From Actinomycetospora lemnae (GTDB taxonomy: Bacteria; Actinomycetota; Actinomycetes; Mycobacteriales; Pseudonocardiaceae), in assembly GCF_028737315.1 (NCBI RefSeq), contig NZ_JAQZAO010000001.1:186001-250000 (forward strand): a DNA stretch of 64,000 nucleotides. The letters are read 5' to 3'. The notes under the pieces are model-generated. The model did no database searches and had not been told where the DNA came from. It worked only from the letters and a program-made list of their open reading frames with translations. Of this stretch, positions 41,333 to 63,992 are shown in pieces. Numbering within the stretch: the first letter of the stretch is position 1; each line of letters opens with the position of its first letter. A program made the translations under genes and the position numbers.

Positions 41333-41342
41333 GGGTGGCTCC

Positions 41343-43834: not shown

Positions 43835-45417
43835 GTGTCCCCCTCCGGGTCACGCAGGGCGGCCAGGTGCAGGCGGTCGCTGACGAGCCCGTCGACGACG
43901 TCGCCGCGGCAGGTCGTGGGCGCGGCGACGACGACGAGCGCGGGTGCGCGCCGCCGCAGCCGTTCGGCGACCTCGAGGCGCGTCAGGACGCTGGAGCGGT
44001 CGTCGGCGCCGGTGAACCACACGACGTCGGCGCCGGCGGCGGCCGCGAGGGCGCGCTCCAGCGCCGCCTCGACGTCGGACTCCCGGCCCGCGGGCCGGGT
44101 GTCGGCGCCGAGGTCGACGACGGACACGCCCGCGCCGAGCGCCGCCGGGTCGTCGGGGACCAGCCGCGAGGAGAACGTCCGCCCGGCGGCCTGCAGGGGC
44201 TGCTCGAGGACCTCGTCGGGGATGGTCTCCGGGTGCGTGACGGCGTCGGCGAGCGCGGGGTCGTCGGACCAGTGCGCGAGCGCCCCGCGCACCACCGTCG
44301 GCGTGCCGGCGGCGAAGCGGTCGAGGGCCACGTTGCCGGCGCGCGTCATGTAGGCGACCAGCAGCTGCTCCACGGGCGAGTCGAGGCGCTCGGGGAACGA
44401 CTCCCACCAGCGCCGCGAGCGCTCGGCGATGTCCTGCAGGCGCGTCACGGCGGGCCGGCGGGCCGCCTCGTAGGCGGTCAGGGCGGACTCCAGGTCGTCG
44501 GCCTCGTGCAGGGCGGCGACCAGCGCGATCGCGTCCTCCATCGCGAGCTTCGTCCCGGAGCCGACGGAGTAGTGCGCGGTGTGGGCGGCGTCCCCGAGGA
44601 GCACGGTCCGCCCGTCGTGCCAGCGCGCGCACCGCACCGTGCGGAAGCGCAGCCAGCGGGTGCGGTTCCCGATCAGCCGGTGGCCGTCGAGGTGCCGGGC
44701 GAACACGTCGGACAGGTGGTCGAGCGCGACGTCGTCGGACGCGTCGGGCGGCAGCGCCGCCGTCGTCCGGTCGAACCCGGCCGCCCGCCACGTCGCCTCG
44801 TCGGTCTCGACGAGGAACGTGCTGCGGTCGGGCGCGTAGGGGTAGGCGTGCGTGACGTACACGCCGTGCTCGGTGCGCTCGGGCGCGAACAGCGCGTGCG
44901 GCAGCGCGACGTCGACGCCGGCCCAGAGGTACCAGCCGGTGCCGATCTCGACGTCCTCGCCGAAGTCGCCGGTGGCGCGCGTGGCGCTCCCGACCCCGTC
45001 CGCGGCGATCACCAGGTCGGCGTCGAGGTCGTCGGCGGCGCGCCGCGTGCCGAACTCGAGCTTCACCCCGGCGTCCTCGGCGTGGCGCTGCAGCACCCGC
45101 AGCAGGTCGGCCCGGCCGACCGCCACGAGGCTGGAGACGCTCATGCCGGCCTCGAACTCGCCCACGCGCATGCGCATGTCGTGCGACCACGCGGTGGCGA
45201 GGATGTCGTCGAGCGAGGCGGGGTCGGCCTCGGCGAGCCGGCGCTGGGTCCGCGCGGCGAGCCCGACCCCGAACCCGAACGTCTGGTCCGGCACGCCCTG
45301 CTCGTGCACGACGACGTCGCACGCGGGCCGGGCGAGCTTCAGCAGCCGCGCGGCGTACAGGCCTCCGGGCCCGCCGCCGAGCACGGCCACACGTCTCAGC
45401 GGCACGTCAGGACCCAC
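43831..45417 (-). CDS. Salicylyl-CoA 5-hydroxylase-like FAD monooxygenase
   Basis: A 528-residue aromatic hydroxylase. GGGPGG (FAD), FGFGVGLAARTQRRLAEADP, the DG motif AADGVGSATRATGD and GDAAHTAHYSVGSGTKLAME strongly resemble SdgC salicylyl-CoA 5-hydroxylase and the monooxygenase half of 2-aminobenzoyl-CoA monooxygenase/reductase. About 130 extra C-terminal residues (VVDLGADTRPAGRESDVEAA) are probably a cap of phenol-hydroxylase type. Located next to an aryl-AMP ligase, it should hydroxylate an aryl-CoA. Start GTG 45417 overlaps the end of hyuB by 11 bases; GTG 45405 is possible. Confidence 0.82.
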   Translation of the reverse strand: MGPDVPLRRVAVLGGGPGGLYAARLLKLARPACDVVVHEQGVPDQTFGFGVGLAARTQRRLAEADPASLDDILATAWSHDMRMRVGEFEAGMSVSSLVAVGRADLLRVLQRHAEDAGVKLEFGTRRAADDLDADLVIAADGVGSATRATGDFGEDVEIGTGWYLWAGVDVALPHALFAPERTEHGVYVTHAYPYAPDRSTFLVETDEATWRAAGFDRTTAALPPDASDDVALDHLSDVFARHLDGHRLIGNRTRWLRFRTVRCARWHDGRTVLLGDAAHTAHYSVGSGTKLAMEDAIALVAALHEADDLESALTAYEAARRPAVTRLQDIAERSRRWWESFPERLDSPVEQLLVAYMTRAGNVALDRFAAGTPTVVRGALAHWSDDPALADAVTHPETIPDEVLEQPLQAAGRTFSSRLVPDDPAALGAGVSVVDLGADTRPAGRESDVEAALERALAAAAGADVVWFTGADDRSSVLTRLEVAERLRRRAPALVVVAAPTTCRGDVVDGLVSDRLHLAALRDPEGDT

Positions 45418-47725: not shown

Positions 47726-47727
47726 GG

Positions 47728-49836
47728 TCAGGCTCCGTGCTTCTGCGAGTGCGTGATGTGGAGGTTGCCCAGGTCGTCGACGGTGCCGGTGCGGCCGTCC
47801 GGGACGACGACCGTCGTCGTGGGGACCTCGACGATCGCCGGGCCGGTGACGACGTGGCCGGCGCGCAGGGCCGCGTAGTCGTAGACGGGGGTGTCGACGA
47901 AGCCCTGGCCGATCTCGAGGTAGACGGGCCGGCGTCCCGACACCTCCGGCTCGCCGTCGGCGCGCTCGAGGGGCGGCAGCTCGGGGCTGAACGGGAGGAC
48001 GCCGCGGCCGCGCACCCGGTAGGTGATGGCCTGGATGCCGGCGGCGCTGAAGCCGGAGCCCTGCCCGTAGAGCTCGGCGTACTTCGCCTCGAACCGGTCG
48101 GCGGCCGCCGTCACCGCGTTCTCGTCGAGCGGCCCGTCGGCGACGGGGACGGTGACCTCGGCGAGCTGCATGGCGTAGCGCATGTCGACCTCGCGGACGA
48201 TCTCCACGCGGTCGAACGCGAGGCCCTGCCGGTCGAGGCCCTGGCGGACCTGGTCCTCGAGCTGGGCGAAGTTCTTCTCCGCGCGCACCGGGTCGACGGG
48301 GAGCTGGGCGGGGTCGGAGAGCTCCTGGGCGAGCGCGATGTCGGACGCGGCGAGCCCGTAGGCGGAGAACGCCGAGGCGACCGGTCCGAGCGGCACGACG
48401 ACCTCGGCGACCCCGAGGTGCGTCGCGTACTTCGCGCAGAACGCCGGGCCGGAGCCGCCGAAGGCGTAGAGGACGAAGTCGCGGGGGTCGTGGCCGGCCT
48501 CGACGACGCTCTTGCGCAGCAGGTCGCCGGTCTGGGCGTTCTGCGCGGCGTGGATGGCCGCGGCGGCGTCCTCGACCGACAGGCCCAGCGGCTCGGCGAC
48601 CCGGGTGCGGATGGCCTCGCGGGCCTTCTCCAGGTCGAGCGCCTTGCGGCCGCCGAGCAGCCCGGTGGTCGGGAGGATGCCGAGGACGAGGTTGGCGTCG
48701 GTGTTGGTGGGCTCGGTGCCGCCCTGGTCGTAGCAGGCGGGCCCGGGGACCGCCTGCGCCGAGTGCGGCCCGATGCGCAGGTTGCCGCCCGCGTCGACCC
48801 ACGCGATCGCGCCGCCGCCGGAGCCGATGGCGTGGACGCGCAGCGTCGGGACGTTGATCGGGTGGTGGTTGATGACGGTCGTGGTGTCGCGCTCGGGCTC
48901 GCCGTCGACGATGAGCCCGACGAGGAACGTGGTGCCGCCGACGTCGGTGGAGATGATGTTGCGGTGCCCGAGCCGCCGACCGAGCTGGCTCGACCCGACG
49001 ACCCCGCCCGTGAGCACGGAGCCCACCGTGGAGATGGCCTGCGCGGGCGCCTCGGACGCCGCGACCGCGCCCCCGTTGGACTGCATGACCAGCAGCGGGC
49101 CGGCGAGACCGCGCTCCTCGAGACCGGTCTCGAGGCTGGTGAGGTAGTCGCGCAGGCCGGGCCCGACCTGCGTGCTCATGATCGTCGTGGAGTTGCGGGC
49201 GAACTCGCGGATGCGGGGGCTGACCTCGCTGGAGAGCGCGACGTAGATGTCGGGGTCGATCTCTCCCACGAGCTCGCGGATGCGGCGCTCGTGGACCGGG
49301 TTGCGGAACGCCCAGAGCAGGGAGACGGCGATGGCCCGGATGCCGTCGGCGCGCAGCGTCTCGACCCGGCGGCGGACCTCGTCCTCGTCGAGCGCGACGA
49401 CGACCTCGCCGTCGCGGTCGATCCGCTCGGTGACCTCCAGGGCGTGCCGCTTGGGCAGCAGGTGGTGGTCCTTGTCCTGGGCTAGGACGTGCTGCAGCTC
49501 GTGCGGGCTGCGGCCCAGGTAGCGGCCCTCGACGTTCATGATGAAGATCGAGTCGCGGTGGCCCTTGGTGGTCAGGAACCCGACCTCGGGGACCTGGCGC
49601 ATCACCAGCGCGTTGAGGCTCGACGTCGTGCCGTGGGCGACGTGGTGGGTCTCGGCCAGCATCTCCTCGACGGGGCGCCCGAGCTGCTCGGCGAGCAGCT
49701 CGAGCACTTCCAGCACACCCCGCGAGTAGTCCGGGGGCGTCGACGGCGCCTTCGCGGCGATGACCGAGCCGGAGTCGTCGTCGAGCACCGCGTCGGTGAA
49801 CGTGCCCCCGACGTCGACCCCGATCACGTAGGCCAT
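47728..49836 (-). CDS. Hydantoinase A/acetone-carboxylase-type ATPase subunit
   Basis: A 702-residue HyuA-family protein with the actin-like ATPase start GVDVGGTFTDAVLDDDSG, HHVAHGTTSSLNALV, the family segment STDVGGTTFLVGLIVDGEPE, RVHAIGSGGGAIAWVD, and YAFGGSGPAFCAKYA. It binds ATP and works with the HyuB partner: N-methylhydantoinase, 5-oxoprolinase, caprolactamase and acetophenone carboxylase are all of this type. ATG 49836 follows CGAGGAG. It is the first gene of the ten-gene minus-strand run and has a recognisable promoter 57-85 bases upstream. Which substrate it attacks cannot be told from sequence. Confidence 0.9.
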   Translation of the reverse strand: MAYVIGVDVGGTFTDAVLDDDSGSVIAAKAPSTPPDYSRGVLEVLELLAEQLGRPVEEMLAETHHVAHGTTSSLNALVMRQVPEVGFLTTKGHRDSIFIMNVEGRYLGRSPHELQHVLAQDKDHHLLPKRHALEVTERIDRDGEVVVALDEDEVRRRVETLRADGIRAIAVSLLWAFRNPVHERRIRELVGEIDPDIYVALSSEVSPRIREFARNSTTIMSTQVGPGLRDYLTSLETGLEERGLAGPLLVMQSNGGAVAASEAPAQAISTVGSVLTGGVVGSSQLGRRLGHRNIISTDVGGTTFLVGLIVDGEPERDTTTVINHHPINVPTLRVHAIGSGGGAIAWVDAGGNLRIGPHSAQAVPGPACYDQGGTEPTNTDANLVLGILPTTGLLGGRKALDLEKAREAIRTRVAEPLGLSVEDAAAAIHAAQNAQTGDLLRKSVVEAGHDPRDFVLYAFGGSGPAFCAKYATHLGVAEVVVPLGPVASAFSAYGLAASDIALAQELSDPAQLPVDPVRAEKNFAQLEDQVRQGLDRQGLAFDRVEIVREVDMRYAMQLAEVTVPVADGPLDENAVTAAADRFEAKYAELYGQGSGFSAAGIQAITYRVRGRGVLPFSPELPPLERADGEPEVSGRRPVYLEIGQGFVDTPVYDYAALRAGHVVTGPAIVEVPTTTVVVPDGRTGTVDDLGNLHITHSQKHGA

Positions 49837-49879
49837 GGATCACTCCTCGACGAGCAGGCGTGACCCGAGCCACGCGTTT

Positions 49880-49921
49880 GACGGTGCCGTCGACTATCTG
49901 ACACCACCGAAGGCCCGTCAA
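49880..49921 (-). promoter_or_regulatory. Sigma70-like promoter and operator of the catabolic operon
   Basis: On the minus strand TTGACG (49921-49916) and GATAGT (49898-49893) are separated by exactly 17 bases, close to the vegetative consensus. The palindrome GACGGTGCCGTC (49891-49880) covers the expected transcription start, where a repressor such as the cluster's TetR could block it. About 45 bases remain to the hyuA ATG. Confidence 0.6.
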
Positions 49922-49940
49922 GGGGCGACCGTGGAACCGG

Positions 49941-50102
49941 TCAGTCGGGCACGAGCTCGATCCACCCGCGCACGACGTCCGGGGTCACCTGACCCACGAG
50001 GTCGGGGTGGTCGCTGCGCACGTGCGCGAGCACCTGGTCCACCACCTGCCCCTCCGCACCGGCCCGTGCCTCGAAGCCGCACTCGCACGTCACCTGGTTC
50101 AT
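49941..50102 (-). CDS. DUF1059-family small protein
   Basis: A 53-residue protein (MNQVTCECGFEARAGAEGQV, then VLAHVRSDHPDLVGQVTPDV). C6-x-C8 and H27...H32 form a possible compact zinc site (C-x-C-x18-H-x4-H), as in DUF1059 proteins. ATG 50102 has GGAGGGGTGGGAG upstream. It is upstream of the hyuA promoter in the same direction and divergent from the BTAD regulator. Function is unknown; such proteins may sense or store metal. Confidence 0.75.
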   Translation of the reverse strand: MNQVTCECGFEARAGAEGQVVDQVLAHVRSDHPDLVGQVTPDVVRGWIELVPD

Positions 50103-50228
50103 CGCTCCCACCCCTCCGTGAGGTCTCGTCCGACGCCTCGACCCTCCCGGCCGGCCTTGCCGAAACCTTGTCGCCGCACGGCCGTGAGGGCGACACTGGC
50201 GCAGGTCCGTCGGCCGGGGGGAGCTGCG

Positions 50229-50990
50229 GTGACGGAGCCCGACGACGTCCCGCCGGTGCGGGTCCAGCTGCACGGACGCTTCGCCCTGGCCGTCGCGGGC
50301 GAGCACGTCGAGCACCTGCTCCCCGGACGCCGCGCCCGCCTGCTCGTGGCCGTGCTGGCGTTGTCGAACCGCTGCGCGGTCGAGCGCTCGACGCTCATCG
50401 ACGTGCTGTGGCGCCCGGCCCTGCCCGGTGCGGGCGCGTCCGGGACGTTCTCCGCGCTCCTGTCGAAGGTGCGCACGCTGCTCGGGCCGGGTGAGATCCA
50501 CGGTCGGCGCTGCCTGCAGCTCGTCCTGCCGCCGGGCTCGATCGTCGACGCCGTCGTGGCCCAGCGTGCGCTGCACGCGGCCGAGTCGGCGGCCGCCCGC
50601 GCGGACTGGGCGCGGGCGTGGACCGAGTCGCTCAGCGCGCTGTTCGTGACCCAGCGGGGACTGCTCGGCGACTTCGACGACCCGTGGAGCGAGGAGCGGC
50701 GGGCCGAGTCCGCGCACCAGCACCGCCGGGTGCTCGCCTGCTACGGCGAGGCGTGCCTGCACCTCGGGCCGGGCGAGCGTGCCGGCGCCGAGCGCAGCGC
50801 GCGGGCCCTCATCGGGCTCGACCCCCTCGCCGAGACCGGCTACCGGCTGCTCATGCGCGCCCACGCCGCCCAGGACGACCGGTCGGCCGCGCTGGCCGTC
50901 TACGAGCAGCTGCGCCGCGCCCTGCGCGACCAGCTCGGCACCGAGCCCAGCCCCGCGACCCAGGAGCTCCACGCGGAGCTCCTGGGCTGA
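50229..50990 (+). CDS. BTAD/SARP-like transcriptional regulator
   Basis: A 253-residue regulator. An N-terminal OmpR-type winged helix (VRVQLHGRFALAVAGEHV, GRRARLLVAVLALSNRCAVE, STLIDVLWRP, FSALLSKVRTLLG) is followed by the bacterial transcriptional activation domain of TPR-like helices (WSEERRAESAHQHRRVLACY, GLDPLAETGYRLLMRAHAAQ, YEQLRRALRDQLGTEPSPAT). This is a small SARP-type architecture without an ATPase domain. SARPs usually activate nearby secondary-metabolite or catabolic genes from direct-repeat sites. GTG 50229 has GGGGGAG upstream. It lies between the hyu operon and the SDR gene; its target is unknown. Confidence 0.85.
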   Translation: MTEPDDVPPVRVQLHGRFALAVAGEHVEHLLPGRRARLLVAVLALSNRCAVERSTLIDVLWRPALPGAGASGTFSALLSKVRTLLGPGEIHGRRCLQLVLPPGSIVDAVVAQRALHAAESAAARADWARAWTESLSALFVTQRGLLGDFDDPWSEERRAESAHQHRRVLACYGEACLHLGPGERAGAERSARALIGLDPLAETGYRLLMRAHAAQDDRSAALAVYEQLRRALRDQLGTEPSPATQELHAELLG

Positions 50991-51025
50991 CACCCACGCG
51001 TCGAGGAACGGCGTCGCGATCTCCG

Positions 51026-51844
51026 TCAGCCCTCGACGAGGCGCATTCCCGCGTCCAGCGCCGGGAGCAACAGCGTGCGCGGGGCGAAGCGCCCGCCGAG
51101 CGCCGTGAGCTGGTTGACCAGGCCCGGGGTGACGCTGCGGTCGCCCCGCGCCATCGCCTCGACGCCGGCCTCGGCGACGTCGGCCGCCTCACCGACGAGC
51201 AGGTCCGGCACGCGGTCGAAGGCGTCGGTCCCGGCCGCGTCGGCGAAGCCGGTGCGCGTGAGCCCCGGGCTCACGGTGGTCAGCGTGACCCCGCTGCCCG
51301 ACAGCTCGGCGTGCACGGCCTCGGAGAACGACTGCACGAACGCCTTGCTGGCCGCGTAGGACGCGGCGCCGGGCAGCGGCTGGAACGCGGTGATCGACGA
51401 GACGTTGAGGATCGCGCCCGGCCGCCGGCGCCGGACCAGCGCGCCGACGGCCGCGACGGTCAGGTCGTGCAGCGCCAGCACGTTGAGCCGCACGAGGCCG
51501 TCGAGCGCGGCCCGCTGCTCCGCGTCGTCGGCGAGCTCGGCGACCCGGCCGGTGACGCCGAAGCCGGCGGCGTTGACGAGGCCGACGACGTCGGGGCTGT
51601 CGAGCAGACCGCGGACGGCGTCGAGGCCGGCGTCCGTGCCGAGGTCGGCGGCGTGGACCGTCGCGTCCCGTCCGGAGAGCTCCCGGAGCTCCGCCGCGAG
51701 GTCGGCCAGCGCGTCCTCGCGCCGCGCCACGAGGAGGGTCGCGTGGCCGCGCCGGGCGAGGGCCCGCGCGACGGCGGCACCGATGCCCGAGGACGCGCCG
51801 GTGACGAGGACGCGTGTGTCGGGACCGGGCGGCGGCAGCGGCAT
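51026..51844 (-). CDS. Short-chain dehydrogenase/reductase
   Basis: A 272-residue classical SDR: NAD(P)-binding TGASSGIG (15-22), NAAGFG, catalytic Ser in NVSSITAF and YAASK. The Arg-Arg after the second strand (VARRED) favours NADPH. The C-terminal part (PGLTRTGFADAAG, LLLPALDAGMRL) resembles the group annotated as short-chain dehydrogenases of acyl or steroid metabolism. ATG 51844 is divergent from the molybdenum hydroxylase gene, with a palindrome between them. The substrate is unknown. Confidence 0.9.
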   Translation of the reverse strand: MPLPPPGPDTRVLVTGASSGIGAAVARALARRGHATLLVARREDALADLAAELRELSGRDATVHAADLGTDAGLDAVRGLLDSPDVVGLVNAAGFGVTGRVAELADDAEQRAALDGLVRLNVLALHDLTVAAVGALVRRRRPGAILNVSSITAFQPLPGAASYAASKAFVQSFSEAVHAELSGSGVTLTTVSPGLTRTGFADAAGTDAFDRVPDLLVGEAADVAEAGVEAMARGDRSVTPGLVNQLTALGGRFAPRTLLLPALDAGMRLVEG

Positions 51845-51866
51845 GATCGAGGAGTACCCGCCGGGC

Positions 51867-51897
51867 TTGCGTTCGAGCGCACTCGAAGGCTTAGCGT
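51867..51897 (+). promoter_or_regulatory. Palindromic operator and leaderless promoter of the Mo-hydroxylase gene
   Basis: TTCGAG-CGCA-CTCGAA (51872-51887) is an inverted repeat with 6-bp arms. TAGCGT (51892-51897) is a -10-like hexamer whose end is six bases before GTG 51904, the spacing of leaderless actinobacterial transcripts; a -35-like TTGCGT is at 51867-51872. The site would also control the divergent SDR gene. Confidence 0.6.
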
Positions 51898-51903
51898 CGA
51901 GGC

Positions 51904-54282
51904 GTGCCTGGTTCGATCATGGGAACGGCCGTCCGACGCGTCGAGGACCCGGAGCTGATCCGCGGCCGCGCCACGTACGTCGACAACATCGTGCCCTCCG
52001 GGGCGCTGCACTGCGTCTTCGTCCGCTCGCCGCTGGCGCACGCGCGCCTCGGGTCGGTCGAGGTCGCGAAGGCCCGGGAGGCGCCCGGCGTGGTCGCGGT
52101 CCTCACCGGCGAGGACATGACCGCGATCCCCGACCACCGCCCGTTCATGGTGCTCAACGACGCCTGCGCACGGCCGCTGCTGGCGCGCGGCAAGGTGCGG
52201 TTCGTCGGCGACATGGTGGCCGCGGTGATCGCGACGACCCGTGCCGAGGCCGTCGACGCCGCCGAGCTCGTCGAGGTCGACTACGACCCGCTCGAGCCCG
52301 TCGTCGACCCCGAGGCCGCGCTCGACGCCGACGCCCCGCTCCAGTTCGAGGAGCTGGGCAGCAACCTCGCCGCCGGGTTCCGCGACCCCGACGACGTCCG
52401 CCCCTTGGAGGGTGCCGACGTCGTGGTGCGCGCGCGGATCGTCAACCAGCGCCTGGCCGTCGCACCGATGGAGGGCAACGCGGTGACCGCGACGCCCGGC
52501 GGCGCCGACCAGCCGTACGACATGACCGTCCACGTCTCCACGCAGATGCCGCACGGGCTGCGCAACCAGGTCGCCGCGCAGTGGGGCTGGGACGCCGAGC
52601 GGGTCCGCGTGATCGCGCCGCACGTCGGCGGCGGGTTCGGCGGCAAGGCGGGCCTCGCGCCCGAGCACGCGGTGGTCGTCGAGGCGGCGCGGCAGCTCGG
52701 CCGGCCCGTCACGTGGACCGAGACGCGCTCGGAGAACCTCACCGCGATGCCGCACGGCCGCGGGCAGGTGCAGTACGGCGAGCTCGGCCTGCGCCGCGAC
52801 GGGACGATCGTCGGGCTGCGGGCGCGGGTGGTCGGCGACGCCGGCGCCTACGCCGGCTTCGGTGGCGCGCTCACCCTGGGGCCGACGCGCAACATGGCCC
52901 AGGGCGTCTACCGCATCCCGACGATCGCCTACGACGGCGCCGCGGTGCTGACCACGACGACGCCGATGGGCGCGTTCCGCGGGGCCGGGCGTCCGGAGGC
53001 CGCGGCGATGCTCGAGCGGCTCGTCGACATGGCCGCCCGCGAGCTCGACACGGACCCCGCGGCGCTGCGACGGAAGAACTTCCTGCAGCCCGACGAGTTC
53101 CCGCTGACCACGCAGACCGGCTCGCTCTACGACTCCGGCGACTACGCCCGCGCGCTCGACGAGGCGCTGCGCGCGTCCGGGTACGAGGCGCTGCGTCGCG
53201 AGCAGGCGCAGCGGCGCGAGCGCGGCGACCGGGTGGCGCTGGGGATCGGGCTCGCGGTGTACGTCGAGGTCACCGCGGGCGGGGGCGGCGCCGAGTACGG
53301 GTCGGTCAGCGTCGATCCCGACGGCGGCGCGACGGTGTCGGTCGGCACCTCGGCGCACGGCCAGGGGCACGCGACGTCGTTCGCGATGATCGTCGCCGAC
53401 CGCCTCGGCATCCCGATGGAGCAGGTGCGGTTCGTGCAGTCGGACACCGCGGCGGTCCCGCGCGGGGGCGGCACGGGCGGCTCGCGCTCGCTGCAGCTCG
53501 CCGGCTCCAGCGTGCTCGTGGCCGCCGACACGGTGCTCGAGCGGGCGCGCGAGGTGGTCGCCGCCGCACTGGAGGCCGACACCGACGACATCACCACGGT
53601 CGACGGGGGCCTCGGCATCGCGGGCGTTCCCGACCGCGCGCTGTCCTGGCGCGAGATCGCGGTCGCGGCGGGCGAGCAGGGGGTGTCGCTGTCGGAGGCC
53701 CGCGACGAGGCGCAGCCCGGTGCGACCTACCCGTTCGGCGCGCACGTCTCCGTCGTCGAGGTGGACCTCGACACCGGTCGCGTCACGCCCGTGCGCCACG
53801 TCGCCGTCGACGACTGCGGCACCGTGCTCAACCCGACCCTCGTCGCCGGGCAGCAGCACGGCGGGCTCGCGCAGGGCATCTCGCAGGCGCTGTGGGAGGG
53901 CTTCTCCTACGACGCCGACGGCAACCCGACCTCCGGCACGTTCGCGGCCTACCTGCTGCCGACCGCGGCCGAGGTGCCGAGCTACGAGGCCTCGTCCACC
54001 GAGACGCCGACGCCCTACAACCCGCTGGGCGCCAAGGGCATCGGCGAGGCGGCGACGATCGGCTCGACGCCGGCGGTGCAGAACGCCGTCGTCGACGCCC
54101 TCGCCCCGCTCGGGGTGCGCCACGTCGACATGCCGCTCACGCCCGACCGCGTGTGGCGCGCGATCCGGGACGCCGAGGCCGGCACGCCCGCCGACCCGTG
54201 GACCGAGCCGCCGGCGTTCTTCGCCGACCTGCCCGTGCGGGGCGCGTCGGCCGACCCGGAGGCCGCGTCGGTCGACGTCTGA
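51904..54282 (+). CDS. Xanthine dehydrogenase/aldehyde oxidase family Mo-binding subunit
   Basis: A 792-residue molybdopterin cytosine dinucleotide-type large subunit. Mo-cofactor segments are [25 protein letters not shown] and [13 protein letters not shown]; the C-terminal [12 protein letters not shown] holds the catalytic Glu. CO dehydrogenase's CSFR motif is absent, so it is of the aldehyde/xanthine/aromatic hydroxylase type. FAD (CoxM-like) and 2Fe-2S (CoxS-like) subunits are not encoded beside it, which is unusual, so it must share subunits encoded elsewhere. GTG 51904 is favoured by the leaderless promoter; ATG 51919 is possible. Confidence 0.9.
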
Positions 54283-55993: not shown

Positions 55994-57304
55994 ATGGAGC
56001 ACCACGAGGTCGACGTCCTGGTGATCGGCGCGGGGGCGGGCGGCCTGTTCACCGCCGCCCGCCTGGCCCACCGCGGCTACCGCACGCTGGTGGTGGAGCG
56101 CCTCGACCGCGTCGGCGGCCGCGCCTCGAGCGAGGTGATCGACGGCTTCACGGTCAACAACGGCGCCATCGTCATCGAGACCGGCGGGATCACCGAGCAG
56201 ACGTTCGCCGAGGTCGGCGCGCGCTTCGACGTGCGCCCGGCCAAGCCCCCGATCCTCTACCGGATCGGCGGCAAGGACGTCGACGTCACCGGCGGCGGCT
56301 GGGGCTTCCTGCTGGGCAAGCTCACGCGCCAGGGCGCCAAGCTGCTCGAGGGCCTCGGCGCGGCCCGGACCGACGACGGGCTGCCCGAGGGCGCGCTCTC
56401 CACCGCCGACTGGGTACGGCGGTACACGGGCAACGAGAAGGTCCACGGGATCTTCCGCAACATGTGTGCGTCGATCTTCGCGGTGAGCTCCGAGGACCTC
56501 CCGGCGGCGGTGTTCCTGACCTACTTCACGCGACGCAGCGCGTTCAAGAAGTTCGGCTTCTGCCCCGAGGGCACGATCGGCGTCTGGCGCGCGCTCGCCG
56601 ACGCCGTCGAGGGCACCGGTCACGGTGAGGTCTGGCTCTCCAGCGAGGTCCGGGCCCTGGACCTGGGCGAGGACGGCACCGTCGTCGGCGCCACCGTCGT
56701 CCGGGACGGGCGCGAGGTGTCGGTGCGCAGCCGGGTCGTGGTCAGCGACGCGGGGCCCGCCGCGACCGCCGACCTCGTCGGGCGCGGCCGCCTGCCCGCC
56801 GACTACGCCGCGACCGTCGACACCACGCCCTGCGCGATGCTCGTCGTCAACTTCGCGAGCCGGGAGCCCCTCGTCGACGCCCCCGGGCTGCTGAGCTTCG
56901 CCACGACCCGGCGGATGTGCTACGTCGCGAACTTCACCGCGACCTGTCCGGAGATGGCCCCCGCGGGCTGGCACCTCTACAACGGCACCTCGGTGCCCGA
57001 GCCCGCGACCGGCGCGTTCGACGAGGAGCAGGAACGGGAGCTCCTGGACGCCGACCTCCGCGAGCAGATCCCCGGCTTCGACCGCGCCCGCGTGCTCTCG
57101 ACGACCGTGTGGCGCGACGCCTGGCCGCCGCAGCGCGCCGTCGCCGGCCACGACCTGCCGCACACCACGCCGATCGCGAACCTCTGGAACGTCGGCGACG
57201 CGGTCAAGCAGTACGCCAACGGCGGCACGACCGCGTGCGCCGAGACCGCGGCGCTGGTCGCCGACGAGATCGCGGCGCGGTTCCCGGTGGCGGCGCTGCG
57301 GTAG
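55994..57304 (+). CDS. Phytoene-desaturase/amine-oxidase-like FAD oxidoreductase
   Basis: A 436-residue flavoprotein. The N-terminal VLVIGAGAGGLFTAARLAHR and VVERLDRVGGRASSEVIDGF form the GxGxxG-E-GGR FAD motif of the CrtI/amine-oxidase group; the C-terminal LWNVGDAVKQYANGGTTACA provides the FAD-binding end. No carotenoid genes are nearby, so carotenoid desaturation is unlikely; an NAD(P)/FAD oxidoreductase of the acyl-CoA island is a better guess. ATG 55994. It is preceded by regulatory element A and converges on a ligase gene (six bases). Confidence 0.82.
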   Translation: MEHHEVDVLVIGAGAGGLFTAARLAHRGYRTLVVERLDRVGGRASSEVIDGFTVNNGAIVIETGGITEQTFAEVGARFDVRPAKPPILYRIGGKDVDVTGGGWGFLLGKLTRQGAKLLEGLGAARTDDGLPEGALSTADWVRRYTGNEKVHGIFRNMCASIFAVSSEDLPAAVFLTYFTRRSAFKKFGFCPEGTIGVWRALADAVEGTGHGEVWLSSEVRALDLGEDGTVVGATVVRDGREVSVRSRVVVSDAGPAATADLVGRGRLPADYAATVDTTPCAMLVVNFASREPLVDAPGLLSFATTRRMCYVANFTATCPEMAPAGWHLYNGTSVPEPATGAFDEEQERELLDADLREQIPGFDRARVLSTTVWRDAWPPQRAVAGHDLPHTTPIANLWNVGDAVKQYANGGTTACAETAALVADEIAARFPVAALR

Positions 57305-57310
57305 CCGTCG

Positions 57311-59050
57311 TCAGGCGGGGGTGGGCGCGGTCTCGAGCTGGTCGGCCACCATCCGCGCCAGCCGGAACTTCTGCACCTTGCCGGTCGGCGTGGTCGGGAG
57401 GTCCGTCGCCTCGAGGAACACCACGCGCCGCGGCACCTTGAACCGCGCCAGCTGCTCGCGGCACAGCGCGATGAGGTCGTCGGCGGTCACCGCCGCGCCG
57501 GCCTTCGGCACCACGCACGCGACGCCGACCTCGCCCCAGCGCTCGTCCGCGACCCCGACGGCGAACGCCTGGCTGACGCCCGGGTGGCGCGAGAGGACCT
57601 CCTCGACCTCCTTGGGCATGACGAGCTCGCCGCCGGACTTGTAGAGCTCCTTGCTGCGCCCGGTCAGCACGACGTAGCGGTCCTCGGTGAGGTAGCCGAG
57701 GTCGCCCGAGCGCACCCAGCCCTCGTCGTCGAGGGCGCGCGCGGTCTCCTCGGGCTTGCGCCAGAAGCCCAGCATGTTCGTCGGCCCGCGCGCGGCGAGC
57801 TCGCCCTCGGCGCCCGGCGGCAGCGGCTCGCCGGTCATGACGTCGATCGTCCTGTACTCGGTGAGGTCGCCTGCCCGATCGCCAGCGCTGCCCGGCAGCC
57901 CCGCGGCACCCGCGAGCTTGACCCGGCCGACGGTCTCCGAGAGCCGCTCGAACGGGTCCTCGGGCAGCGTCAGGGTCATCGCGCCGCCCTGCTCGGTCAT
58001 GCCGTAGCCGGTGACGATCTCGTCGACGCCGAGGGTGTCGCGGACCTTCTCCCACAGCCACACCGGGGCCGGCGCGGCGCCGGAGAGGATGGCGCGCAGG
58101 CTCGAGAGGTCGCGCGTGGCGAGGTCGGGGTGCTCGAGGATCGCGACGGTCATCGTCGGCACGCAGAGGATGTCGGTGGCGCGGTGGCGCTCGATGCCCT
58201 CGAGGTAGCGGCCGGGGTCGAACGCCGTCTGCGGGACGATCGCGCCGCCGACCATCATCGCCGCCATGAGGCCCTCGACGTAGCCGAACATGTGGTAGCA
58301 GGGCAGCGAGAAGAGGATGCGCCGCCCGTCCTCGAACGCCCGGGTCAGGGCGGACGCGTAGCCGGTGCGCTGGCTCGCGTCGTGGGTGATGAGCACGCCC
58401 TTGGGCGAGCCGGTGGTGCCGGACGTGTAGAGGATGTCGGCGACGTCGTCGGGCGCCGGGGCCTGATCAGGACCGCGGCCCTCGCTGCCGCCGGCGTGCT
58501 CGCGACCGAGCTGCTCGAGGTCCTCGACCGACCCGACGCCCGCGCGCGAGCGCCCGTCGGTCGAGAGCGTGACGACCCCGCGCAGCTCCGGGAGCGCGGT
58601 CTGCTCGCCCGCGTCCCAGCCCGGGGCGATCTCGTCGAGCATCCCGAGGTGGTCGAGCCCGGCGAACCCGGTCATGGTGATCAGCAGGTTCGCCTGCGAC
58701 TGCTCGAGGACGTAGCGCAGCTCCTCGGTGCGGTAGAGGTAGTTGAACGGGATGGCGACGGCGCCGGCGCGCGAGATCGCGAACTTCAGCGGCACGAACT
58801 CGACGTAGTTCGCCATCACCAGCCCGACCCGGTCGCCCGGGCGCACGCCCAGCGCGACGAGCCCGTCGGCCAGGCGCTCGGTCCACGCGGCGACGTCGGC
58901 GTAGGTCACCGTGCGCTCGTCGGTGATCACCATCGGGCGGTCGCCGAACTCCTCGGCGCACCGCGCGAGCCGCTCGTGCAGCGTCATCGGCGTCCACGCC
59001 GCGAACCGCTGCCGCAGCACCTCGCGTCGCTCGTCGAGGCTCGCACCCAT
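57311..59050 (-). CDS. Acyl/aryl-CoA ligase (ANL superfamily)
   Basis: A protein of about 579 residues. P-loop YTSGTTGSPKGVLITH, GYGMTEQGGAM, WVRSGDLGYL, the hinge GRSKELYKSGGELVMPKEVE and A10 lysine in PTGKVQKF are all present. It is similar to medium/long-chain fatty acid or aromatic acid CoA ligases. I chose ATG 59050, which has GGGGAG at a workable distance; ATG 59074 lacks spacing. Two short loops (GSAGDRAGD, AGGSEGRGPD) look like insertions. It follows the enoyl-hydratase-like gene after a 248-base gap with its own promoter, so it is probably a separate unit. Confidence 0.88.
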   Translation of the reverse strand: MGASLDERREVLRQRFAAWTPMTLHERLARCAEEFGDRPMVITDERTVTYADVAAWTERLADGLVALGVRPGDRVGLVMANYVEFVPLKFAISRAGAVAIPFNYLYRTEELRYVLEQSQANLLITMTGFAGLDHLGMLDEIAPGWDAGEQTALPELRGVVTLSTDGRSRAGVGSVEDLEQLGREHAGGSEGRGPDQAPAPDDVADILYTSGTTGSPKGVLITHDASQRTGYASALTRAFEDGRRILFSLPCYHMFGYVEGLMAAMMVGGAIVPQTAFDPGRYLEGIERHRATDILCVPTMTVAILEHPDLATRDLSSLRAILSGAAPAPVWLWEKVRDTLGVDEIVTGYGMTEQGGAMTLTLPEDPFERLSETVGRVKLAGAAGLPGSAGDRAGDLTEYRTIDVMTGEPLPPGAEGELAARGPTNMLGFWRKPEETARALDDEGWVRSGDLGYLTEDRYVVLTGRSKELYKSGGELVMPKEVEEVLSRHPGVSQAFAVGVADERWGEVGVACVVPKAGAAVTADDLIALCREQLARFKVPRRVVFLEATDLPTTPTGKVQKFRLARMVADQLETAPTPA

Positions 59051-59298
59051 CACGCACCACTCCCCGGGCCGCATCCCCCGTTTTTTTAGTCGCGAGAAGA
59101 ATATGGGGCGGTCGTGACCCGGACCACCGCCAGTTCCGTGGTCGGACGGTCACCGCGCGTACACGACGAATCGGGCACGAGGGCGTCGCGCGGTCCCTGG
59201 GGAAGATCACGAGCACGTGGTGCACCGGCGGCGCCGCTCCGAGGTGCCTCAGGTGCCCCTGATCTCCACGGGCTGATCGCCGGCCCCCGCACCCACCC
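59051..59298. other. Intergenic region upstream of the ligase gene
   Basis: About 250 bases without a convincing gene. An AT-rich tract (TTTTTTTAG, 59081-59089, then GAAGAATAT) lies just before the ligase start and on the minus strand reads GACTAAAAAAAC, similar to GACTAGAAAAAC of element A. It probably holds the ligase promoter. The rest shows nothing I can interpret. Confidence 0.4.
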
Positions 59299-60069
59299 TC
59301 ACCGCGCGCGGAACCGCGCCAGCCGCTCGCTCACGGCGGGGTCGGCGAGGTGCTCCAGCACCACCTCGGTCTCGCGCGCCAGCCCGTCGGCGAGCGGGAG
59401 CCCCAGACCCTCGTGCACCAGCCGCTTGGTCCGCGCCGTCGCCCCGGGGTCGGCACGGCGCAGCCGCTCGACGACCTCGTCCACCAGGGCGTCGAACTCC
59501 TCCCCCGACGCGCTGCGCCACGCCAGGCCGAGCGCGACCGCGTCGGTGCCCGAGAGCCGCTCGCCGAGCAGGATGTGGGTCAGCGCGCGCTGCGACCCGA
59601 GCAGCCGCGGCAGCCGCTGGGAGCCGCCGCCCGCCGGGACCTGGCCGAGGCGCGCGTGGTTGTCCGCGAGCACGGCGTCGTCGCGCACCACCACGATGTC
59701 GGCGGCCTGCACGAGCTCGAAACCGCCCGCCGTCGCGACCCCCTCGACCGCCGCGACGACGGGCACCGGCAGCGTCGCCACGACCGAGCACGCGCGGTGG
59801 AACGCCTCGAACAGCCCGCGCAGCGCGGCACCGCCCTCGGCGCGCAGCCGCGTCACCTCGTCGACGTCGCCACCGGCGCAGAAGTGCCCGCCGGCACCGC
59901 GCACGACGATGACGCGAGCCCGCCCGGCGAGGTCCACCAGCGCGTCGTGCAGCCCGTCCGCGAGCGCGACCGTGATCGCGTTGCGGGCGTGCGGGCGGTT
60001 CAGGACGACGTGCCCGACAGCGCGATCCGGAGGGCCGTCCACCCGGGCCAGCACGGGGTCGTCGGACAC
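59299..60069 (-). CDS. Enoyl-CoA hydratase/isomerase family protein
   Basis: A 256-residue crotonase-fold protein. Oxyanion-hole segments are HFCAGGDVDEV and GVATAGGFELVQAADIVV. The position that in hydratases is the catalytic Glu of 'PE' before LG is Asn137-His138 (ADNHARLGQVPAGGGSQRL), so water addition is not assured; isomerase, hydrolase or other crotonase chemistry is possible. GTG 60069 has GAGGAG upstream. It is divergent from the SnoaL-fusion gene across 57 bases containing element B. Confidence 0.85.
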   Translation of the reverse strand: MSDDPVLARVDGPPDRAVGHVVLNRPHARNAITVALADGLHDALVDLAGRARVIVVRGAGGHFCAGGDVDEVTRLRAEGGAALRGLFEAFHRACSVVATLPVPVVAAVEGVATAGGFELVQAADIVVVRDDAVLADNHARLGQVPAGGGSQRLPRLLGSQRALTHILLGERLSGTDAVALGLAWRSASGEEFDALVDEVVERLRRADPGATARTKRLVHEGLGLPLADGLARETEVVLEHLADPAVSERLARFRAR

Positions 60070-60094
60070 GGTGACTCCTCGGTCGGCGCATGTT

Positions 60095-60114
60095 TGAATC
60101 CACATTAGAAGACC
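60095..60114. promoter_or_regulatory. AT-rich regulatory element B
   Basis: TGAATCCACATTAGAAGACC lies between the divergent enoyl-hydratase-like and SnoaL-fusion genes. It matches element A (55946-55965) in 14 of 20 positions. Confidence 0.45.
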
Positions 60115-60126
60115 GAGGAGGTCCGG

Positions 60127-61329
60127 ATGGAGTCGCACGAGAAGAGCGCCCGCCTGCTCTACGACGCGCTGGCCACGGGCGACCGCAAGGCCCTCGACGC
60201 GATCCTCGATCCCGCGTTCACGGGCGAGGCCACCGAGGGCCTGCCGTTCGGCCTCGGCGGCACGCACGAGGGCGCCGAGGCGATGATCCGCGACTTCTGG
60301 TGGGCGATCGGACGGCACTACCGCGCCCGCGCCGAGCCCGCCGAGTTCCTGGCCCTCGCCGACGGCGGGCTCGTCGTCCTGGGCCGCTACGTCGGCATCG
60401 CGCGCGACGGCGGCCGGGAGCTCGACGCCGCGTTCGCGCACGTCCTGACGTTCACCGACGACGGCCGGATCGCCTCGCTGCGCCAGTACACCGACAGCGC
60501 GCGCTGGGCCGGCGCCACGCGCGGCACGCCGGCCGGGCAGCGGGCGCTGCGGGTCGTGCGATACGACGTCACCGCCGGCCTCGCGACCATCGAGCTCGAC
60601 CGCCCCGAGGCCGGCGGCGCGATCGACCCGACGATGGTCGAGGACCTCGACGAGGCCACCTTCCGCGCCGCGCACGACCCGGAGGTCCGCGCGGTCCTGA
60701 TCCGCGGCACCGGCCGGACGCTCTCCGTCGGCGGCGACCTCGCGTTCTTCGCCGGCGAGGCGGACACGATCCCCGAGCGGCTGCGCTGGATCATCGACCG
60801 CTACCACGTGACGCTCGACCGGCTCGTCACGCTCGAGGCGCCGGTGGTGTGCGCGGTGCACGGGGCGCTCGCCGGCGGCGGGCTCGGCCTCGCGCACGTC
60901 AGCGACATCGTCGTCGCCGCCGACGACAGCCGCTTCGCCGTCGGCTACGGCGCGATCGGCCTGGCCTCGGACGGGGCGAACACCTGGTACCTGCCGCGCC
61001 TGGTCGGGATGCGGCGCGCCCAGGAGATGTTCCTGCTCAACCGCGTGCTGACCGCCGCCGAGGCGCTCGACGCCGGCCTGGTCACCGAGGTCGTGCCGGC
61101 CGACGAGCTCGCCGCCCGGGCCCAGGAGCTCGCCACGACCCTGGCCGCCGGCCCCACCCGCGCGTTCGGCCACATGAAGCGCCTGCTGCTCGCGAGCCAG
61201 GACAACGACCTCGCGGGCCAGCTCGCCGAGGAGACCCGGCGCATCACCGCCACCGGCGCGACCGCGGACGCCCGCGAGGGGATCACCGCGTTCGTCGAGC
61301 GCCGCCGCCCCGACTTCCGCGGTCGCTAG
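60127..61329 (+). CDS. SnoaL-like domain fused to enoyl-CoA hydratase/isomerase domain
   Basis: A 400-residue two-domain protein. Residues 1-135 form an NTF2/SnoaL-like domain (LYDALATGDRKALDAILDPA, AFAHVLTFTDDGRIASLRQY). Residues 140-400 are a crotonase domain (LDRPEAGGAIDPTMVEDLDE, VGGDLAFFAGE, VHGALAGGGLGLAHVSDIVV). The hydratase glutamate position is replaced (FAVGYGAIGLASDGANTWYL instead of PE..LG..P). I know of no standard fusion of these two domains; SnoaL could bind or cyclise the same substrate. ATG 60127 has GAGGAGG. The stop overlaps the convergent TetR gene. Confidence 0.85.
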   Translation: MESHEKSARLLYDALATGDRKALDAILDPAFTGEATEGLPFGLGGTHEGAEAMIRDFWWAIGRHYRARAEPAEFLALADGGLVVLGRYVGIARDGGRELDAAFAHVLTFTDDGRIASLRQYTDSARWAGATRGTPAGQRALRVVRYDVTAGLATIELDRPEAGGAIDPTMVEDLDEATFRAAHDPEVRAVLIRGTGRTLSVGGDLAFFAGEADTIPERLRWIIDRYHVTLDRLVTLEAPVVCAVHGALAGGGLGLAHVSDIVVAADDSRFAVGYGAIGLASDGANTWYLPRLVGMRRAQEMFLLNRVLTAAEALDAGLVTEVVPADELAARAQELATTLAAGPTRAFGHMKRLLLASQDNDLAGQLAEETRRITATGATADAREGITAFVERRRPDFRGR

Positions 61330-61919
61330 GCCGGCAGCCGCAGCAGCGCGAACACGGCCTCCGCGGTCCGGGCCGGCGGCTGCCCGGCGAGGCCCGCGGC
61401 GTTGAGCGCGCCGAGCAGGAGGTCGCGGACCTCGCCCGGCTCCGGCCCGGCCGCGAGCGTCCCGTCGGCCTGCGCGTCGGCCACCAGCTCGGCCCAGCGC
61501 CGCAGGTACTCGCGACGCAGCGCGCGGAACCCGCTCTGCTCGGGCTGGTCGGTGAACCGCGGCGCGAGGACGACGACGGCGTAGTCGGAGAGCTCCGCCA
61601 GCGCGCGCAGGTGGGCGTGGACGCCGGCGCGCAGCCGGTCGACCGGGGCACCCGACGGCATCACCATCGCCTCGTCGAGACGCCGCAGCGAGGCGCTGAT
61701 CCCCTCCTCGAGCACGGCCTCGACGAGCCGCTGCTTGGAGGCGAAGTGGAAGTAGAGGCTGCCGGTACGCAGGTCGGCCGCGGCCGCGATGGCCCCGAGC
61801 GACGCGCCCGCCGGCCCGTGCCGGGCGATCTCGGCCGCGGCGGCGTCGAGGATCCGGCGGCGGGTCAGGTCGCCCTTGCCGGCGGGAGCCGCCGGCTCCT
61901 CAGTGGATGCGCCTCTCAT
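61326..61919 (-). CDS. TetR family regulator
   Basis: A 197-residue regulator: RRRILDAAAAEIARHGPAGA, SLGAIAAAADLRTGSLYFHF, ASKQRLVEAVLEE is the TetR DNA-binding domain, followed by a helical domain (LRALAELSDYAVVVLAPRFT, VRDLLLGALNAAGLA). ATG 61919 lies inside the last 20 bases of the ligase gene, so it is the third gene of the operon SnoaL-ligase-TetR and probably autoregulated from the palindrome upstream of that operon (63970-63992). Confidence 0.9.
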   Translation of the reverse strand: MRGASTEEPAAPAGKGDLTRRRILDAAAAEIARHGPAGASLGAIAAAADLRTGSLYFHFASKQRLVEAVLEEGISASLRRLDEAMVMPSGAPVDRLRAGVHAHLRALAELSDYAVVVLAPRFTDQPEQSGFRALRREYLRRWAELVADAQADGTLAAGPEPGEVRDLLLGALNAAGLAGQPPARTAEAVFALLRLPA

Positions 61920-63450
61920 GTCCGCGCCAGTATGGCTCCCGCAGGGTCGGCTTGATGACCTTCCCGGTCGCGGTGCGCGGCAGGGCCTCGACGACGTCGA
62001 CCGACTTCGGGCTCTGGAACCCGGCGAGCCGTCCGCGGGCGAAGGCGATGATCCCCGCCGTGTCGGGTGTCGACCCCGCCTGCAGGACGACGACGGCCTT
62101 GACCGCCTCGCCCCACCGGTCGTCGGGCACGCCGATGACGGCGACCTCGGCGACGTCGGGGTGCTGCGCGAGCACCCGCTCGACCTCGGCGGGGTAGACG
62201 TTCTCGCCACCGGTGACGATGCGGTCCTTCGCGCGGTCGACGAGGTGGATGCGCCCGGCCTCGTCGAGGCGACCGAGGTCGCCGGTGCGCAGCCAGCCCT
62301 CCGGGGTCAGCGCGGCGGCCGTCTCCTCGGGGCGCTGCCAGTAGCCCACCATGTTCTGCGCCGAGCGCGTCCAGATCTCGCCGACGACACCCGGCGCCAC
62401 CTCGGCGCCGCTCTCGGGATCGACGACGCGCAGCTCCGTCCACGGGTACGGACGCCCCGCCGACGTCAGCGCCGGCCCGCCCTCGCGGTGCTCCTCGGCG
62501 GAGAGCTGCGCGAACGCGCCCGTCGCCTCGGTCAGCCCGTAGATCTGCACGAAGTCGCAGCGCAGGGCCACCATCGCCCGCTTGAGCGCGTCCTCGCCGA
62601 TCGGCGAGCCGGAGTAGATCATCTGCCGCAGCCCGAGCGGTCGCGAGTCGATACCGGGCACCGCGCAGAGGGCGGCGAGCATCGTCGGGACGCAGAACGC
62701 GGTCGTGACGCCGTGCGCCTCGATCGCGTCGAGCACGTCGGTGGGGACGATGTCGCGGACCACGACGGCACGCGCGCCGCGGGCCATCCCGGCGAGCGCC
62801 CACGCCAGCCCGCCCATGTGGAACAGCGGCATGGCGACGAGGCTGACGTCGCCGTCCCGGAAGCCCCACGCCCGGGCGATGTCGTCGACGAGCACGGCCA
62901 GGTTGGTGCCCGCGAACATCGCGCCCTTGGGCCGGCCGGTGGTGCCCGAGGTGTAGAGCTGGAACGCGACGTCGTCGGGGGCGACCGGGCGCTGCGGGTC
63001 CTCGGCCGGTCCGACCCAGTCGTCGAACGACCGCACGTCGCCGGACGCGGTCCCGAGGACCACCACGTGCCGCACGCCCGGCCGGTCCGCGAGCACGCCC
63101 GCGAGCGCCGCGGCGGCGGGCTCGTCGACGAGCACCATCGTCGCCCCGGAGTCGTCGATCATCGCCGCGATCTCGTCGCCGGCGAGGCGCCAGTTCAGCG
63201 GGGTCAGCACGGCCGCGGCGAGCCCGGCGCCGAAGAGGATCGGGAAGTAGCTCGTGTCGTTGCGCGCGACGAGGACCACGCGCTCGCCGGGCGCGACGCC
63301 GTCGCGGACCAGCGCGGCGGCGACGGCCCGTGCCCGCTCGCGCAGCGCGGTCCAGGTCGTCCCCTCACCGGGGCGTCCCGCGGGCTCGACGGCGACCGCG
63401 TCGGGCACGGCCGCGCACCGGGCGTCGAGCAGCCCGCGCAGGGTGGTCAT
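61900..63450 (-). CDS. Acyl-CoA ligase (ANL superfamily)
   Basis: A 516-residue enzyme with P-loop LYTSGTTGRPKGAMFAG, IYGLTEATGAF, WLRTGDLGRLDE, the hinge DRAKDRIVTGGENVYPAEVE and A10 lysine in TATGKVIKPTLREPYW. The ending with PTLREPYW and the length are typical of fatty-acid/steroid side-chain CoA ligases of the FadD3/FadD17 kind, but the substrate is unknown. ATG 63450 overlaps the SnoaL stop (ATGA). It activates an acid for the acyl-CoA steps encoded nearby. Confidence 0.9.
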   Translation of the reverse strand: MTTLRGLLDARCAAVPDAVAVEPAGRPGEGTTWTALRERARAVAAALVRDGVAPGERVVLVARNDTSYFPILFGAGLAAAVLTPLNWRLAGDEIAAMIDDSGATMVLVDEPAAAALAGVLADRPGVRHVVVLGTASGDVRSFDDWVGPAEDPQRPVAPDDVAFQLYTSGTTGRPKGAMFAGTNLAVLVDDIARAWGFRDGDVSLVAMPLFHMGGLAWALAGMARGARAVVVRDIVPTDVLDAIEAHGVTTAFCVPTMLAALCAVPGIDSRPLGLRQMIYSGSPIGEDALKRAMVALRCDFVQIYGLTEATGAFAQLSAEEHREGGPALTSAGRPYPWTELRVVDPESGAEVAPGVVGEIWTRSAQNMVGYWQRPEETAAALTPEGWLRTGDLGRLDEAGRIHLVDRAKDRIVTGGENVYPAEVERVLAQHPDVAEVAVIGVPDDRWGEAVKAVVVLQAGSTPDTAGIIAFARGRLAGFQSPKSVDVVEALPRTATGKVIKPTLREPYWRGHERRIH

Positions 63451-63956
63451 CGCGACCCGCCGGTGTTCCGACGGCCGTGGACGCCGATCTGCTTCATCAG
63501 CCCGAGCAGGTCGTAGGTGGCGTTGAGGTAGCAGGCGCGCCCGCCGCGGAAGTCGAAGACCTCGAGTCCCGCGAACGCGAACGGCCGTCCGGTGCCCGCG
63601 ATGCCGGGCGGGTCGAGGCGGCCGGTGAAGTGCCCGGTGCCCCGCCAGTGGAACGCGGCGCGGGCACGGTCGTCGGCGAACAGCGGCGGCGCGGTGACCT
63701 CCCACTGCAGGTCGGGGTAGGCACCGAGGACGTAGGCGATGTAGCCCTCCGCGGCCGCGGGCCCCTGCACCTGCCAGCCCGTGTGGCGGGTGGTCGGGCT
63801 GTCGAGCACGAAGTCCTCGGTCAGCAGCTCGCGGCAGAGCTCCGGGCGGTTCTCGTTCCACGCCCGGATCCAGCCCTCGTACCAGCGCACGGCGACGGCG
63901 CGGTCGAGCACCGCGTCCGGCCCTGTGTCGCACTCCGGGACCACCACTGCCGTCAT
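63447..63956 (-). CDS. SnoaL-like/NTF2-fold protein
   Basis: A 169-residue single-domain protein with the SnoaL/NTF2 fold (WYEGWIRAWNENRPELCREL, VQGPAAAEGYIAYVLGAYPD, AAFHWRGTGHFTGRLDPPGI, FAGLEVFDFRGGRACYLNAT). Members include ester cyclases, steroid isomerases and small-molecule carriers. First gene of the operon with the CoA ligase and TetR; ATG 63956 has GAGGAGG. A second SnoaL domain occurs in the fusion protein at 60127, so this fold may be a recurrent part of the pathway. Confidence 0.85.
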   Translation of the reverse strand: MTAVVVPECDTGPDAVLDRAVAVRWYEGWIRAWNENRPELCRELLTEDFVLDSPTTRHTGWQVQGPAAAEGYIAYVLGAYPDLQWEVTAPPLFADDRARAAFHWRGTGHFTGRLDPPGIAGTGRPFAFAGLEVFDFRGGRACYLNATYDLLGLMKQIGVHGRRNTGGSR

Positions 63957-63969
63957 GCCGCCTCCTCGA

Positions 63970-63992
63970 TCTAACGTAAGTTAGAATCTAAC
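63970..63992. promoter_or_regulatory. TetR-type operator upstream of the SnoaL-ligase operon
   Basis: TCTAAC-GTAA-GTTAGA (63970-63985) is a perfect 6-4-6 palindrome, followed by another TCTAAC (63987-63992). It begins 14 bases upstream of the SnoaL ATG, within its ribosome-site/promoter zone. A TetR gene lies at the end of this operon. Confidence 0.7.

Follow-up and report, generated by a model that had tools for sequence, protein, structure and literature searches.

A SnoaL-like domain fused to a crotonase with a PaaG-type active site in Actinomycetospora lemnae

PaaG is a bacterial enzyme of the crotonase fold, known as 1,2-epoxyphenylacetyl-CoA isomerase/delta3,delta2-enoyl-CoA isomerase (structures 3hrx, 6sl9, and 4fzw_C). 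Its substrate is 1,2-epoxyphenylacetyl-CoA, its second role is that of a delta3,delta2 isomerase, and its catalytic residue is Asp136 (PMC7497051). It lacks the two glutamates of enoyl-CoA hydratases, Glu144 and Glu164 in rat numbering, and has an aromatic residue at position 164. In its pathway it goes with the epoxidase PaaABCE.

An example for the joining of two catabolic activities is PaaZ, which combines an aldehyde dehydrogenase with an enoyl-CoA-hydratase domain. The two activities of this single chain are consecutive, and in other bacteria they are encoded by separate genes (PMC7497051). A different fold is found in the polyketide cyclases SnoaL and AknH, which are NTF2-like. The essential residues of SnoaL are Asp121, His107, Asn33, Gln105, and His119, and a published superposition places Thr131 and Asn117 of IdmH at the positions of Asp121 and His107 (PMC6830212). 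Finally, the auxin locus iad of Variovorax combines a Rieske oxygenase (IadDE) with a ligase (IadF) and a thiolase (IadG). IadD is reported to be a monooxygenase that acts via a likely epoxide, and the report mentions no SnoaL-crotonase fusion (PMC12633357).

The window analysed here is a stretch of 64,000 nucleotides from Actinomycetospora lemnae (contig NZ_JAQZAO010000001.1, positions 186,001 to 250,000). It contains a single gene, by frame and translation, for a protein of 400 amino acids in which a SnoaL-like domain precedes a crotonase domain (Table 1). The preliminary description of this DNA had assigned residues 1-135 to the former and 140-400 to the latter. Those limits were right, since Pfam places SnoaL_2 at residues 9-117 (E 1.7e-8, a match that passes the curated cut-off) and ECH_1 at residues 149-399 (E 2.7e-51). 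The domain pair and the folds differ from those of PaaZ; the likeness lies in two catabolic units that share one chain here and have separate genes elsewhere.

Table 1. Features of the fusion gene and its neighbourhood, in window coordinates.
Feature	Position	Strand	Evidence or remark
FAD-dependent oxidoreductase (phytoene-desaturase/amine-oxidase like)	55994..57304	+	conserved cluster gene
Acyl-CoA ligase	57311..59074	-	conserved cluster gene
Second crotonase, divergent from the fusion	59299..60069	-	Glu144 kept, His at Glu164
Operator-like palindrome	60093..60110		2 mismatches to TTCTAAT-N4-ATTAGAA; between divergent crotonase genes
Ribosome-binding site AGGAGG, 5 bases 5' of ATG	60116..60121	+	sequence
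SnoaL-crotonase fusion gene, 400 aa	60127..61329	+	open frame from ATG to stop, translation; both domains in 21/21 relatives
N-terminal SnoaL/NTF2-like domain, residues 1-130	60127..60516	+	SnoaL_2 match; model pLDDT 96; structure matches
Codon of H105, position of SnoaL His107	60439..60441	+	alignment with IdmH N117, published superposition; invariant
Codons of Q120-Y121-T122-D123; Q120 at SnoaL Asp121 position	60484..60495	+	IdmH alignment
Linker, residues 131-142	60517..60552	+	alignment; differs among relatives
C-terminal crotonase domain, PaaG-like, residues 143-400	60553..61326	+	ECH_1; Foldseek best match PaaG
Codon of G254, in place of hydratase Glu144	60886..60888	+	alignment with PaaF/PaaG
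Codon of Y274 (in GYGAIG), in place of hydratase Glu164; Phe in PaaG	60946..60948	+	alignment
Codon of D282, position of PaaG catalytic Asp136	60970..60972	+	alignments

The fusion is real. A chance frame or an assembly join is excluded because all 21 diverse relatives that were aligned have both Pfam domains; 27 fused genomes of the family and several independent named records likewise rule it out. Compared with close relatives, dN/dS is below 0.4 in the SnoaL domain and in the crotonase domain, indicating purifying selection on both. Pfam, NCBIfam, the PDB, and the open literature searched yielded no characterised protein of this architecture, and that literature contained nothing relevant on SnoaL-crotonase fusions. 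What is new is the architecture and its lability; the active site of the crotonase half is of a known isomerase type.

The residues of this active site were mapped by alignment with PaaF (a hydratase) and PaaG (an isomerase) of E. coli. The two glutamates of PaaF, in the motifs GCELA and LPEITLG, align with G254 and Y274. The preliminary description had reported GYGAIG in place of PE..LG and a missing hydratase glutamate. Y274 at the position of Glu164 confirms this, and the loss is not limited to that residue, since both glutamates of PaaF are replaced. The motif MAFSKLG of PaaG corresponds to VGYGAIG in the fusion protein. D282 is invariant in the 21 aligned fusions and is also kept in split, coupled, and single-domain relatives. 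The half therefore has the residue pattern of a PaaG-type isomerase, with the aspartate retained and no glutamate at 144 or 164, and a hydratase identity is ruled out by G254 and Y274.

Comparison of structures points the same way. The top Foldseek matches of the crotonase half are 3hrx, 6sl9, 6slb, and 6sla, which include apo forms and D136N complexes; PaaG of T. thermophilus comes first, and 3hrx and 6sl9 reach TM scores of 0.93 and 0.91 by target length. Sequence identity to PaaG is 34-40%, and the fusion differs from PaaG in its additional SnoaL domain and in being encoded with a Rieske oxygenase instead of PaaABCE. The PaaG equivalog model TIGR02280 gives 173 bits, half of its curated cut-off of 345, a score that by this test excludes orthology with PaaG. 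Uncharacterised paralogues, such as w67385, have PaaG-like residues too. By residues and modelled fold the crotonase half would work like PaaG, yet it should not be called PaaG.

A new reaction had been proposed from the altered active site. For the crotonase half none is needed, because an aromatic residue together with the aspartate is the known pattern of PaaG. Hydration, one of the reactions suggested, is unlikely because the catalytic aspartate of PaaG is present and PaaG is the best structural match. The structure prediction that had been recommended as a check placed PaaG closest to the crotonase half, but it left the placement of the two domains relative to each other uncertain (full-length model, pTM 0.68).

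The SnoaL half, modelled alone, reaches the pLDDT given in Table 1. Its nearest solved structures are TerC and the NTF2-like, uncharacterised proteins 3grd, 3ec9, 3ebt, and 1tuh, and its profile match to 3grd and 3ec9 is strong. The fold also matches epoxide hydrolases, among many others, in a comparison of fold alone; limonene epoxide hydrolase, whose catalytic triad is Asp-Arg-Asp, was compared at this level. SnoaL numbering was transferred through an alignment with IdmH (T131 and N117) and the published superposition. By this numbering the fusion has the NTF2-like fold and the His107 of SnoaL, as H105, whereas the catalytic Asp121 is replaced by Q120. D123 had been considered as the counterpart of Asp121 and was dropped, as the IdmH numbering places Q120 there. 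Cyclisation of the SnoaL type, the other reaction suggested, is hence unsupported, and the aldol mechanism of SnoaL is not expected. The fusion further differs from SnoaL and AknH in being joined to a crotonase, with no polyketide synthase genes seen beside it. A pair like Tyr14/Asp38 of KSI was not seen in the SnoaL half on inspection by eye. All 21 fusions share H105, Q120, T122, D123, and W127 without exception, and free-standing SnoaL relatives of three other genomes (G540, G643, and G070) have them too.

The two domains are found in several genetic states. In two genomes, G999 and G1041, the last bases of the SnoaL gene are GTGA, whose GTG is at the same time the start codon of the crotonase gene. 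Such stop/start overlaps are the usual layout of translationally coupled genes. In G643 a SnoaL gene on the minus strand adjoins a crotonase gene on the plus strand, and the pair is flanked by relatives of the FAD oxidoreductase and acyl-CoA dehydrogenase of the cluster described below. In G540 the two genes lie about 9 kb apart.

In other genomes the SnoaL part is absent. One of them is Pseudonocardia RYN_179 (L029), in which the initial residues of the protein and the operon are retained. The operons of Rhodococcus qingshengii and R. opacus are colinear, with DNA 81-86% identical; the R. opacus protein starts MGLQEKR, followed by SnoaL and then crotonase, while that of R. qingshengii starts MSLQEQR and continues directly into crotonase, the SnoaL part being cleanly missing. 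In R. qingshengii, RYN_179, and G998 the crotonase without SnoaL keeps D282 and the operon is intact. No other SnoaL protein of the fusion's family was found at E 1e-6 in G998 or in G1032, which is taken to be RYN_179. The repeated natural absence of the SnoaL part shows that the crotonase half is independent of the SnoaL pocket, which had been suggested to assist the reaction. The gene states describe two halves of one pathway in which the crotonase has no physical need for SnoaL.

Other arrangements were noted in passing. Plasmid pBCI2-1 of Pseudonocardia EC080610-09 carries a single gene for a 676-residue ECH-SnoaL-ECH protein (L114, 13140-15170). A 370-residue frame in G643 (L093, about 9092-10201, reverse complement) seemingly holds two SnoaL-like domains in tandem, with a SnoaL match at 9334-9693 on the minus strand. 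In one draft genome (G1017, L074) the linker repeat SDSAAPIREPA and a frame change lie between the SnoaL and crotonase parts, which may be an assembly fault.

The domain-architecture search that the preliminary description had called for showed that the fusion recurs. It is present in 11 of the 18 genomes of the genus Actinomycetospora. Among 390 genomes of the family, 27 have it, spread over eight genera, where a match was counted if it covered the query from position 6 or before. Outside the family it occurs in Nonomuraea wenchangensis and in a single genome from a different family of the same order, and plasmid pRoPD630_1 of Rhodococcus opacus PD630 carries it as well. A sample of the phylum (396 genomes, same threshold) yielded, beyond the window's own genome, unfused relatives only. 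On the crotonase tree the fused state is not monophyletic and requires no fewer than four changes; a single clade of all sampled fusions was rejected (AU p 1e-4). There may have been one gain of the fusion, with later losses or splits.

The surroundings of the gene are conserved as well. The genes that recur around it encode both subunits (alpha and beta) of a Rieske oxygenase, a 79-residue protein, an acyl-CoA ligase and an acyl-CoA dehydrogenase, an FAD oxidoreductase, an SDR, TetR regulators, and two further crotonases. A cluster of ligase, Rieske alpha and beta, FAD oxidoreductase, dehydrogenase, and SDR is common to Actinomycetospora, Nonomuraea, Pseudonocardia, and Rhodococcus, and in many loci the dehydrogenase gene lies directly 3' of the fusion or crotonase gene. 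The residue pattern of the second crotonase in Table 1 is repeated in R. opacus and on a plasmid of M. avium. The 79-residue protein, encoded 3' of Rieske beta (L019, 12497-12736, plus strand), has no cysteines and no Pfam or NCBIfam match, and its presence after the two Rieske genes is conserved across many genera. In the window the fusion is separated from the Rieske genes by a block (61326-63911, minus strand) that encodes a TetR regulator, an acyl-CoA ligase, and another SnoaL protein, which is free; in most relatives this block is not at that place. Further upstream (40145-54282), translations read by eye include a likely P450, an acyl-CoA ligase, a HyuA/HyuB-like pair, and a molybdenum hydroxylase-like protein.

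The Rieske alpha subunit (at least 66% identity) was present in all eight tested genomes with the cluster. Five Actinomycetospora genomes that have no fusion lack it, as does G1015, where an unfused crotonase lies in another setting. Its nearest relative in the PDB is IadD, a partial similarity, and NCBIfam models of benzoate-type oxygenases score far below their cut-offs. The cluster shares with the iad locus the nearest solved Rieske alpha, a CoA ligase, and a thiolase, but differs from it in its gene set. The cluster looks like an undescribed gene set for the degradation of ring-shaped acids. A steroid side-chain CoA had been mentioned as a substrate, to which no steroid genes point specifically.

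The cluster also appears to be regulated in common. The palindrome TTCTAAT-N4-ATTAGAA occurs again at 63969-63986 of the window, at 14226-14243 and 15072-15089 of L019, and at 242, 3464, 6631, 7963, and 15191 of L024, with none expected by chance. Common regulation is supported because the palindrome stands 5' of the fusion and of several other cluster genes. It probably defines a TetR regulon, judging from these sites.

From the computed domains, residue pattern, gene cluster, and gene states, we infer an isomerase reaction, a place for it in a pathway, and a role for the SnoaL half. The protein is likely to be a two-domain acyl-CoA isomerase, in which a PaaG-type crotonase is combined with a semi-independent NTF2-like accessory unit, in a CoA pathway for ring acids. 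With both glutamates gone, the crotonase half cannot add water by the crotonase route. Instead D282 would move a proton within the dienolate of the CoA thioester, as in PaaG, shifting a double bond from delta3 to delta2 or within a ring. The isomerase would act between the acyl-CoA dehydrogenase and the later steps of a CoA-dependent pathway that includes the Rieske oxygenase and may degrade a ring-containing acid; the shift would let dehydrogenation or ring processing continue. The SnoaL half would be a unit of NTF2 fold that conserves residues of its own (H105, Q120, D123, W58, Y88, and W127). Its most likely role is in an adjacent step, where it would act on the same intermediate or present it; alternatively it may help with particular substrates. 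The fusion would then join proteins that in other relatives are separate or co-translated.

A more tentative proposal is that the genes belong to an undescribed CoA-dependent ring-degradation pathway that has spread among Actinobacteria, on chromosomes as well as plasmids, and partly to Proteobacteria. In it the SnoaL-like enzyme and the PaaG-type isomerase might catalyse two successive steps on a ring intermediate, needed for some substrates only, which would explain why SnoaL is fused, co-translated, separate, or lost.

It is somewhat unlikely that the SnoaL half is a non-catalytic module for substrate binding, oligomerisation, or stability. Some NTF2-like domains are non-catalytic (PMC3924330), and here SnoaL is repeatedly absent while the rest is retained. 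The free-standing copies nevertheless keep the same histidine, glutamine, threonine, aspartate, and tryptophan, which suggests that the half has a function of its own.

Distinctly less probable is an epoxide route, in which the crotonase half would act, like PaaG, on an epoxide or oxepin-type intermediate from the Rieske oxygenase and the SnoaL half would handle the same epoxide. The nearest Rieske structure, the known substrate of PaaG, and the epoxide hydrolases among the fold matches are consistent with such a route, but the similarity to IadD is partial, and G998 and RYN_179 manage without SnoaL. The reading first proposed, in which the crotonase site is completed by the pocket of SnoaL and the two together hydrate or cyclise an acyl-CoA, is very unlikely. 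The invariant polar residues of the SnoaL half and the long-term association of the two genes would fit it, but the catalytic aspartate and both glutamates are lost, and R. qingshengii, RYN_179, and G998 lack the SnoaL part, a loss that an active site shared by both domains would not be expected to survive.

With the two-domain isomerase as the preferred reading, the fusion points to a degradation pathway combining Rieske and CoA chemistry, of which no description was found in the literature searched. It also provides a natural experiment on domain fusion, in which the same operon occurs with its helper domain fused, coupled, separate, or absent. The function of this NTF2-like family is therefore directly testable.
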